DNA of 64,000 nt from Saprospiraceae bacterium (lineage in GTDB: Bacteria > Bacteroidota > Bacteroidia > Chitinophagales > Saprospiraceae). Location of the stretch: NCBI GenBank assembly GCA_029262995.1, contig JAJCYH010000015.1, positions 1-64,000 on the forward strand, written 5' to 3'. Both the position numbers and the translations under genes were made by a program. This document shows positions 48,041 to 50,833 of this stretch, piece after piece; position 1 is the stretch's first letter; the number at the start of each line of letters is the position of its first letter. Under the pieces are notes generated by a model. It did no database searches. It was not told the origin of the DNA and saw only the letters and a list, made by a program, of their open reading frames with translations.

Positions 48041-49327
48041 ATGAAAAACCTACTCATTTTATTCCTTGCTTTAATGTCAACTAACTGTGTCGCTCAGAAC
48101 TTATATGACATGAGATGGAGCAGTGATGGTATTGATTATTATGGTTTTATGATCTACTTCAATGAAGATGATGTATATATGAGGATAGGTTATGAGTTTG
48201 ATGGAGGCTACAATTTAGCACACACGGAATACGTGTACACTTCTGCTTTAGAAAAGGAAGGAATGATTTATATGGAAACTGATGAAACCTATTATATTTC
48301 GTTGGTTACAGATGAAGATTATGAGGGCTTTCAATTTTTTTGGACCCTGGATGATCAAAACAATATTATTGGGCCATTTGCCATTGACAATTATTATGTC
48401 GAGGAAGAGAATTATGAGGAAGTTGTGGAAGTAGTTTTGACAGAATTAGATGTGAAAAATTTGACTGCTGAGTATCTTCAATCTTTTTACCTTACAGACG
48501 AAGAGGACTATCTTATATTGCTTGAGGCTGCTACACCTGTGAGTAATAATTCAGTAAATGTTGAGAATAATTCAGGAACGACTTTACATTTTATCATGAC
48601 AGCTAATACTCTTATTGCTGATATTGGTACCACCGTCAAAATAGATGTTCACAATACATTAAGTGAGTTCGGTGGTATATCCTCTGCTTTGGGCATGCAA
48701 TTTAATCCAATAGTATTGTCAGATCAGCATTTTGACAAGGCAAATTTAACTACTACATTAGAAAGCTTGCGGCCGAGTCCTAATGATGTTGTAATCTTCT
48801 GGTATTCTGGACATGGCTTTAGATTTGATGATCAAGCAGAAATATTTCCTCAAATGGATTTAAGATATAATGAATACCAACCAAGTGGATATGATAAGGT
48901 GATGAATATTAATGATGTTTACAATCAAATTATTCAAAAAGGTGCGAGATTAAATATAGTTGTTGGAGACTGTTGTAATTCTTATATTGGAGTAAAACAA
49001 AAGGCTGGTACTAGTATTTTGGCATCGCGATCTTCTGTTAATGCAGATATCAATAAACTTGAAAAGTTATTTTTAGAGTCTTCTGGAGGCATCATTGCTG
49101 CTGGGTGTGATTCGGGAGAATCGTCTTATGGAAACAATCAGGATGGAGGTTTTTATACAAGTAGTTTTATTTCTGCTTTAAGGGCAGAAACAAGTAGGCT
49201 TCATAATGATGATGTACCACGATGGGAGGATGTTTTGGATCATGCTCAAAAGACGGCGGTAAAGAAATCTACTAGCTGTAATAATTGTCCAGCTCAAAAT
49301 CCAATTTATCAAGAGACAGTAAACTAA
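48041..49327 (+). CDS. Secreted caspase-family (C14) protein
   Basis: This 428-residue protein has a signal peptide (MKNLLILFLALMSTNCVAQ). Residues 20-130 are beta-rich and unassigned. A caspase-like fold occupies about 180-420. The catalytic His is H258 in VIFWYSGHGFRF, and the nucleophile is C312 in NIVVGDCCNSYIG, matching the DxC motif. Residues EQ/GG near 340-370 (GGIIAAGCDSGES, GGFYTSSF) fit the expected later strands. Unlike cytosolic defence caspases, the signal peptide puts it in the envelope or outside. The next genes, convergent, encode an ECF sigma system. The substrate and activating signal are unknown. Confidence 0.88.
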   Translation: MKNLLILFLALMSTNCVAQNLYDMRWSSDGIDYYGFMIYFNEDDVYMRIGYEFDGGYNLAHTEYVYTSALEKEGMIYMETDETYYISLVTDEDYEGFQFFWTLDDQNNIIGPFAIDNYYVEEENYEEVVEVVLTELDVKNLTAEYLQSFYLTDEEDYLILLEAATPVSNNSVNVENNSGTTLHFIMTANTLIADIGTTVKIDVHNTLSEFGGISSALGMQFNPIVLSDQHFDKANLTTTLESLRPSPNDVVIFWYSGHGFRFDDQAEIFPQMDLRYNEYQPSGYDKVMNINDVYNQIIQKGARLNIVVGDCCNSYIGVKQKAGTSILASRSSVNADINKLEKLFLESSGGIIAAGCDSGESSYGNNQDGGFYTSSFISALRAETSRLHNDDVPRWEDVLDHAQKTAVKKSTSCNNCPAQNPIYQETVN

Positions 49328-49340
49328 AAATGAATTATTG

Positions 49341-49736
49341 TTACAAGCTTCGTTCGTAATAATTTTTGATCAAAACCAATTGAATAAAAACGGCTAGAAT
49401 GATTGTCACTACAATCATTGGATTAATACTGTCAAGGAATAACTTAGGAATTTGCAATTCGTAATGTGGTATCTGTAGGGAATCCAATTGAGATATAATT
49501 CCTAAATCAATAGTAGGACAATAGAAAAAATTATATGCAATAAACGCTATAAGCAATACAGCAACAATAACCCAAGCCCATCTAGGAATAATTACAACAG
49601 ATGGTTTAGAAGAAATAGATTTCTCTTCTTCAAGTTGATTAAGAACTGAAGAAAGCATACCATCAGGAGCGGATTCATATCCTATGGACTTAACCAATTC
49701 TTTAAAAGCATTTTCTTGTTGATCTGTTATCATCAC
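49341..49736 (-). CDS. Putative membrane anti-sigma factor
   Basis: This 131-residue protein is encoded 10 bp after an ECF sigma gene. The N-terminal 45 residues are cytoplasmic-looking and acidic. Two hydrophobic segments follow (WAWVIVAVLLIAFIAYNFF and MIVVTIILAVFIQLVLI) around a short extracytoplasmic loop. There is no zinc-binding HxxxCxxC, so it is not a classic ZAS anti-sigma. The position after the sigma gene and membrane topology are the only grounds for the call. It ends 13 bp from the convergent caspase gene. Confidence 0.6.
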   Translation of the reverse strand: MMITDQQENAFKELVKSIGYESAPDGMLSSVLNQLEEEKSISSKPSVVIIPRWAWVIVAVLLIAFIAYNFFYCPTIDLGIISQLDSLQIPHYELQIPKLFLDSINPMIVVTIILAVFIQLVLIKNYYERSL

Positions 49737-50316: not shown

Positions 50317-50329
50317 AAGCTATACTCAT

Positions 50330-50355
50330 GACAATTTAGGAATTCAAATGGTTAC
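50330..50355 (-). promoter_or_regulatory. ECF-type promoter GTAACC-N17-GTC, sigma gene side
   Basis: On the minus strand GTAACC (50355-50350) is followed after 17 bp by GTC (50332-50330), 14 bp before the sigma gene start. This AAC/GTC layout is typical of ECF promoters. The spacer length equals that of the divergent copy. Confidence 0.6.
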
Positions 50356-50390
50356 ATTTTTATAATATTTTTAAAATTATCAATGAATTT

Positions 50391-50416
50391 GTAACCGGGG
50401 TTCTCTCAATATTGTC
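50391..50416 (+). promoter_or_regulatory. ECF-type promoter GTAACC-N17-GTC, DUF6249 side
   Basis: GTAACC (50391-50396), 17 bp, then GTC (50414-50416), 49 bp before the DUF6249 ATG. It is the twin of the element on the other strand 35 bp away. Confidence 0.6.
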
Positions 50417-50464
50417 AATCCAATGTATTAAAAAACTTATTTATTAAAATTTAAATCAAATACA

Positions 50465-50833
50465 ATGGAAGAAGCAATGGTGTTTTTACTCTTTTTGGTG
50501 ACTTTTTTTGGAATTGTGTATCTTTTTTTCAGTACACGCCATAAGGAACGTATGGCCCTTATTGAAAAAGGTGTAAGTGCAGATTTATTTGTTTCATCAA
50601 AAAGGAAAAGTGCAATTCCTCTATATGCGGTACTGCTTATCAATTTGGGTGTTCTTGGAATAGGCGTAGGTTTGGGTATATTGATAGGGCAGCTGTTACA
50701 CTTAACAGGTATAGATGATGATATCACAATGCCAAGCTCAATATTCATATGCTTGGGTATTGCTCTTTTGACGGGATTTGTTCTTACGAGAAGAGTAGAC
50801 CAGAGGTACAGAGAAGAGCAACAAGAAATATAA
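50465..50833 (+). CDS. DUF6249 family membrane protein
   Basis: This 122-residue protein matches DUF6249. It has one N-terminal helix (MVFLLFLVTFFGIVYLFF), a short basic segment containing HKERMALIEKG, which is characteristic of the family, then two more helices and a charged tail. The function is unknown. It is divergent from the ECF sigma gene and its promoter carries the same GTAACC-N17-GTC element, so it is a likely regulon member. A strong bidirectional terminator follows. Confidence 0.85.
   Translation: MEEAMVFLLFLVTFFGIVYLFFSTRHKERMALIEKGVSADLFVSSKRKSAIPLYAVLLINLGVLGIGVGLGILIGQLLHLTGIDDDITMPSSIFICLGIALLTGFVLTRRVDQRYREEQQEI

Follow-up and report, generated by a model that had tools for sequence, protein, structure and literature searches.

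The gap between the divergently transcribed genes for an extracytoplasmic function (ECF) sigma factor and a DUF6249 protein very probably holds a pair of mirror-image promoters read by the adjacent sigma factor, which would make the locus an autoregulated, SigW/RsiW-like module with DUF6249 as its dedicated target. The twin promoters probably let a stress-type sigma factor switch on its own gene together with DUF6249, in an arrangement that recurs in many Bacteroidota. As a kind, the module is an ECF regulon. Comparison of loci brought out the twin elements, their conservation, the agreement between partners, covariation with the DNA-contacting residues of the sigma factor, and a second copy of the unit spelled in other letters. 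In the proposed mechanism, free sigma factor would carry RNA polymerase to both predicted promoters, where transcription would start. Leftward transcription would cover the sigma gene and the gene of a small membrane protein, probably its anti-sigma factor, and rightward transcription would cover DUF6249, the dedicated target. The third protein would hold the sigma factor at the membrane until a signal arrives, as RsiW does for SigW; the releasing signal would concern the cell envelope, and DUF6249, a small three-helix membrane protein, may be an effector or a feedback part of the response. Because this unit, present in many Bacteroidota genomes, appears to tie DUF6249 to a single sigma factor, the function of the protein becomes approachable and its likely regulator can be named.

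Table 1. Features of the ECF/DUF6249 locus in the window (the whole analyzed stretch of 64,000 nucleotides).
Feature	Position	Strand	Support
Small two-TM protein, 131 aa, at the anti-sigma gene position	49341..49736	-	2 TM segments predicted
ECF sigma factor gene, 189 aa	49747..50316	-	Sigma70_r2 61.2 bits and Sigma70_r4_2 41.4 bits, both above the Pfam cut-off
Predicted sigma-gene promoter (autoregulatory), GTAACC-N17-GTC with TTGTC as -10 context	50330..50355	-	
Spacer of 35 bp between the facing -35 elements	50356..50390	.	
Predicted DUF6249 promoter, GTAACC-N17-GTC, -10 context TTGTC	50391..50416	+	
DUF6249 gene, 122 aa	50465..50833	+	PF19762 58.8 bits versus gathering cut-off of 33

The first-pass annotation had described GTAACC-N17-GTC on both strands of this gap and nowhere else upstream of a gene in the window. 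Both statements were borne out, as the gap pair is the only exact match to GTAACS-N16..18-GTC in the 64 kb, and both predicted promoters point outward with their -35 halves facing each other (Table 1). The count in the window is weak when taken alone, since at least two GTAACS-N16..18-GTC matches were also reached in 9 of 100 shuffles of the window, and the case therefore rests on placement and conservation. Allowing one mismatch gave 7 matches to GTAACC-N17-GTC, against 5.0 expected. The numbering used for sigmaH (G-11, T-10, T-9; PMC6411747) would place the +1 of the sigma promoter near 50321, with a 5-nt leader, and that of the DUF6249 promoter near 50425, with a 40-nt leader. Convergent with the third gene of the unit lies a Peptidase_C14 (caspase-domain) gene at 48041-49327.

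Among genomes of the window's family, 69 of 199 had DUF6249, as did 124 of 395 from its phylum (E ≤ 0.001), and a part of these family and phylum matches made up the loci studied. Iterated profiles found an ECF gene in 166 of 184 DUF6249 loci (L050, the sole one of the 184 without a DUF6249 profile match, was dropped). At 123 of the 184 DUF6249 matches the nearest ECF gene is divergent and upstream; at 39 it is co-directional and downstream, at 4 co-directional and upstream, and 18 matches have no ECF gene in the fetched flank. Removal of 5 near-duplicates left 118 divergent units; L107 and L003 have near-identical gaps. Comparison of the same gap across these units, a check proposed in the first-pass annotation, found GTAAC-N16..18-GTC on both strands, always outward, in 84 of the 118, and a twin with the second -35 base free to vary (G[ACT]AAC-N16..18-GTC) in 101. 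No GTAAC twin arose in any of 100 shuffles of the 118-gap set, and among 360 permuted motifs the true one gave 84 twins, the overlapping GTAAC/CGT form gave 41, and the other 358 gave at most 4. The spacer was 17 bp at 73 of 100 sites on the DUF6249 side and at 76 of 87 on the sigma side.

The G[ACT]AAC..GTC twin was missing from 17 of the 118 divergent gaps. In 9 of these 17, TGTAACC elements face each other and at least one of the two -10 elements is altered (CGTT, CGTA, GCATC, CATAT, and others); the altered -10 is alike on both sides in 7 of the 9. By eye, L182 has a TGCAACC pair; L147 is mixed, and the 6 weak gaps are those of three Ktedonobacterales loci and of L071, L140, and L165. This reading of the twinless gaps gave a bonus to like -35 elements and is descriptive rather than a test; no bonus entered the count of 101. 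Divergent ECF/DUF6249 pairs with no clear GTAAC twin were also seen outside Bacteroidota, in Ktedonobacterales/Ktedonobacteraceae (L017, L019, and L020). The first-pass annotation had offered absence of the motif from the gap of close relatives as grounds for discarding the proposal. The closest relatives found (L003 and L004), whose DUF6249 proteins are 67-68% identical to that of the window, have the twin with the same TTGTC ending. Psychroserpens luteolus (L014) carries the twin as well. In the same-genus genome G032 (L092) both motifs are present with a gene now between them; they are of the CGTC type, so this unit may answer to the paralogue of the window's sigma factor described below. 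G135, one of two same-genus genomes searched, had no DUF6249 match.

The window's sigma factor consists of sigma2 and sigma4 domains only, the composition of ECF (group 4) sigma factors. Its closest sequence relative in the PDB is Bacillus subtilis SigW (5wuq; E 4e-20), and orthology to SigW was rejected because the scores fall below the equivalog cut-offs (NF007223, 116.2 bits versus 209; TIGR02948, 103.5 versus 243.1). Of the 118 units, 111 have a further gene behind the sigma gene, and two TM segments are predicted for 100 of these. A profile (A2) of 64 of the 111 third genes, all encoding 150-200 aa, matched RsiW (9e-11), DdvA (1.9e-6), RseA (3.5e-4), and RsrA (0.005); individual members matched zf-HC2 in 29 of 64 (E ≤ 0.05) and an NCBIfam anti-sigma model in 27 of 64 (E ≤ 0.01), and HxxxCxxC occurs within the first 90 aa in 20 of the 111. 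The third protein of a paralogous unit is modeled with four N-terminal helices before its TM segment. The family thus shows the RsiW/RseA-type order of an N-terminal anti-sigma domain followed by a TM segment, and on these sequence likenesses we take the third gene to belong to the class I anti-sigma factors, a membership that the first-pass annotation had not mentioned for the gene following the sigma gene. For the third protein of the window, neither Pfam (at E 0.01) nor NCBIfam (above cut-off) gave a match, and its hhalign match to A2 (probability 91.7) covers just 44 columns around the last helix before TM1. It is one of 23 short forms among the 111 (≤140 aa). It seems to lack most of the usual anti-sigma domain and to keep only the last segment before TM1 and the two TM helices, and its grip on the sigma factor may therefore differ.

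The -10 element is CGTA in SigW promoters and of a GTC/GTT type in those of Escherichia coli RpoE. B. subtilis SigW/RsiW resembles the present units in that SigW is the best PDB relative of the sigma factor and RsiW is matched by the third-gene profile. In addition, the SigW -35 element, GAAACCT (PMC6713349), shares its form with the GxAACC of the ECF/DUF6249 units. The units differ from SigW in having T rather than A at the varying -35 base in most cases, GTC at -10, and DUF6249 as a divergent target. E. coli RpoE and Mycobacterium tuberculosis SigH likewise use bipartite promoters with a -35 element and GTC or GTT, whereas in the units described here the promoters form a mirror-image pair, and in place of a broad regulon there is a single conserved target. 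ECF sigma factors usually autoregulate (PMC3817407), and inferring their promoters from autoregulation and DNA-contact residues is an established approach (Todor 2020, as summarized in PMC8103513).

The AlphaFold2 model of DUF6249 (mean pLDDT 91.5, pTM 0.62) comprises three long helices, predicted at residues 2-34, 53-80, and 85-121, and a short one. An alignment (A1) of 81 sequences, drawn from a list of 163 of 95-150 aa, shows a charged segment, RHKERMALIEKG, to be conserved where the first helix ends. Foldseek matched the model to no solved fold below E 2.5, and a profile search of PDB sequences returned nothing below E 0.09, the best matches being unrelated membrane proteins. DUF6249 looks like an orphan family: in the literature searched, DUF6249 was mentioned by one plant-genomics paper and PF19762 by none, and GTAAC appeared only in a Bradyrhizobium paper. 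The first-pass annotation knew of no described link between an ECF sigma factor and this family, and none was found in the literature searched, which lay outside the ECF classifications of Casas-Pastor 2021 and Todor 2020.

A role for DUF6249 as a membrane-stress effector is suggested by the likeness to SigW/RsiW. The protein might instead be a second regulator of the sigma factor, a co-anti-sigma or signal-relay membrane protein, such that the promoter pair would form a feedback loop. We regard this as possible, if rather unlikely. Its close genomic association with the sigma factor, the charged segment conserved in a small membrane protein, and the lack of any other target at GTAACC stringency in the window's genome are all in keeping with such a role, but the sigma gene is already followed by an anti-sigma-like gene in nearly all units, with longer members that match RsiW, and searches of DUF6249 against Pfam, against PDB sequences by profile, and with Foldseek uncovered no similarity to anti-sigma factors.

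The preferred reading, in which the adjacent sigma factor drives DUF6249 as an output, gains from a second unit in the same genome. DUF6249 has 2 copies in the genome of the window, and the second, on contig C26, is divergent from an ECF gene that is followed by a 168-aa gene, with an outward GTAACC-N17-GTC twin in the gap. The genome-wide motif search proposed in the first-pass annotation identified 81 GTAAC-N17..19-GTC sites. Seventeen of these are GTAACC-N16..18-GTC sites, comprising 2 in the window gap, 2 in the C26 gap, and 13 inside long ORFs, so that all 4 sites outside ORFs fall in the two ECF/DUF6249 gaps. The remaining 64 (GTAAC[AGT]) divide into 53 inside ORFs (6 of 7 at an ORF limit of 80 aa and 47 of 57 at a limit of 90 aa) and 11 outside; for 6 of the 11 an ORF lies downstream at no more than 400 bp, and these ORFs include one for DUF2807 and one for a further ECF sigma factor. 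With the stringency set at GTAACC, the regulon consists of the two local units. The term "mini-regulon" used in the first-pass annotation therefore holds at this stringency, but for two units with different -10 variants rather than one, and the looser motif widens the set by the 11 sites outside ORFs. The sigma factor may have minor extra targets and intragenic promoters. The paralogous sigma factor, 33% identical to that of the window, has D at residue 84 and CGTC in its promoters, while the window pairs N84 with TTGTC; the two sigma factors accordingly look insulated from each other.

Twin promoters form a natural data set, offering two readings of one sigma factor's specificity in each genome, and in this case they pointed to a single residue. 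The varying -35 base was the same in both partners in 99 of 101 twins (reshuffled partners: mean 72, maximum 83) and the base before GTC in 71 of 101 (mean 31.8, maximum 48), counts that are inflated by relatedness among the units. Among the 71 agreeing twins, with the 30 disagreeing ones left out, sigma residue 84 went with the base before GTC as D with C (37 of 42), N with T (7 of 9), and T with A (13 of 15). This residue ranked first of 164-166 columns in 20 of 20 thinned draws at identity ceilings of 0.7, 0.6, 0.5, and 0.45 and in 17 of 20 at 0.4. The identity-thinned ranking was adopted after a nearest-pair contrast (35 pairs) in which residue 84 was not significant (P = 0.13) and a different column ranked first (P = 0.007, uncorrected, 168 columns). 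Residue 84 of the window's sigma factor aligns with N92 of M. tuberculosis sigmaH, whose side chain contacts the -11 base pair adjoining the base before GTC (PMC6411747). Several sigma columns also covary with the -35 base; the fifth is window residue 166, aligned with SigW T171, which contacts A-34 (PMC6713349). This -35 covariation is supportive only, because the A and C classes hold just 10 and 5 members.

The first-pass reading of an autoregulated ECF promoter is thus upheld at the level of sequence by twins in most divergent gaps, matched bases, and covariation with the DNA-reading residues of the adjacent sigma factor. The promoters could alternatively be genuine ECF promoters read mainly by some other ECF sigma factor, with the adjacent one incidental. 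The motif indeed lies upstream of DUF6249 at 14 of the 18 loci with no ECF gene in the fetched flank (shuffles: mean 0.42, maximum 2), several of these flanks being cut by contig ends. Against this, residue 84 of the adjacent sigma factor corresponds to the base before GTC, with two different pairings inside one genome, and we hold such incidental adjacency to be very unlikely.

Other gene arrangements suggest that each gene keeps its own promoter. In six wide-gap units (L062, L069, L076, L082, L086, and L092; ~790-1320 bp) each motif stands just before its own gene, and 5 of the 6 contain an inserted ORF of ~105 aa or more. Tandem loci L115, L119, L121, and L124 have GCAAC..GTC upstream of both the sigma gene and the DUF6249 gene, the DUF6249 matches in 2 of these 4 lying below the Pfam cut-off. 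The retention of a motif by each separated gene speaks against one operator common to both genes and in favor of DUF6249 being itself a target, and together with twin conservation it favors the co-regulation of DUF6249 predicted in the first-pass annotation. At 35 loci DUF6249 lies within 200 bp ahead of the sigma gene on a shared strand, and the canonical motif occurs in only 8 of them; of the other 27, 16 have TGTAA..ATC at 15-20 bp, and four show, by eye, a GTTAC- or GTCAC-like form before GTAGTC. Loci with this gene order, among them L013, L015, L023, L024, L070, and L080, mostly carry TGTAACC..ATCT or GTTAC-type variants upstream of DUF6249.

These arrangements also bear on whether the facing GGTTAC...GTAACC halves are a dyad operator of a separate transcription factor that controls both genes. 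The -35 halves do form an inverted repeat, and the distance between them clusters near 22, 33, 45, and 55 bp. However, conservation extends over a bipartite unit in which GTC usually follows after a 17-bp spacer, the halves lie anywhere from 7 to 1141 bp apart, separated or tandem genes each keep a copy, and the -10 and -35 bases vary with residues of the sigma factor encoded alongside. We consider a dyad operator highly improbable and rejected it on promoter anatomy and gene separations.

As the loci above had been picked by DUF6249, the twin pattern was therefore also searched blind to genes, as GACG-N16-GGTTAC-N5..35-GTAACC-N16-CGTC, in two overlapping sets, 396 genomes from the order and 395 from the class. 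It matched 8 genomes of the order and 6 of the class, and the reversed control pattern had no match in the same order and class sets. All 14 loci lie between an ECF gene and a DUF6249 gene, and 6 of the 14 are in genomes new to the analysis, with facing -35 distances of 28, 22, 24, 34, 22, and 34. Restricted to the CGTC type and a spacer of 17, this narrow pattern is no measure of frequency, and it matches neither twin of the window's own genome. A chance origin of the twin, for which only the readiness of shuffled windows to yield two matches speaks, has a negligible probability and was rejected on the conservation across gaps and the blind search.

Under the favored interpretation of paired ECF promoters, the leaders of the two genes differ in length. 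The first in-frame ATG follows GTC at a median distance of 12 nt for the sigma gene (98 measured) and 42 nt for DUF6249 (102 measured); a +1 placed 9 nt downstream of the C would leave the sigma mRNA almost without a leader. The facing -35 distances are non-uniform, with clusters at ~12, 22, 33, 45, and 55 bp in steps of ~11 bp. Over the 81 units with distances of ≤100 bp, the phasing gave R ~0.5 near 11 bp, with P = 0.0013 against jittered distances for 30 clusters (50% identity) and P = 0.19 for 17 clusters (45%); it fades at 17 clusters and is accordingly kept as a lead. A tentative and, in our judgment, doubtful extension is that the two promoters act as a coupled unit, with holoenzymes on set faces of the DNA and the sigma/DUF6249 ratio governed by DNA geometry and translation mode, and with DUF6249 as the dedicated output of a widespread Bacteroidota membrane-stress module.

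Related motifs were observed at further genes. In the window's genome, GTAACG-N17-GTC in a CGTC context precedes the ORF of a DUF2807 gene by 19 bp (L244; G000:C12, site 501-526). Among relatives, 15 of 28 DUF2807 genes are preceded by GCAAC-N16..18-GTC at up to 250 bp (shuffles: mean 0.4, maximum 2), from a set of 30 loci (L244 and L281-L309) in which L307, unplaced by tblastn, was dropped. Judged from these sequences, the DUF2807 motif is apparently another ECF promoter class. At L275 (G000:C27:97258-97282), another ECF ORF starts 92 bp after GTAACA-N16-GTC, also in a CGTC context, and 63 GTAACC sites were listed for Flexithrix (L008).
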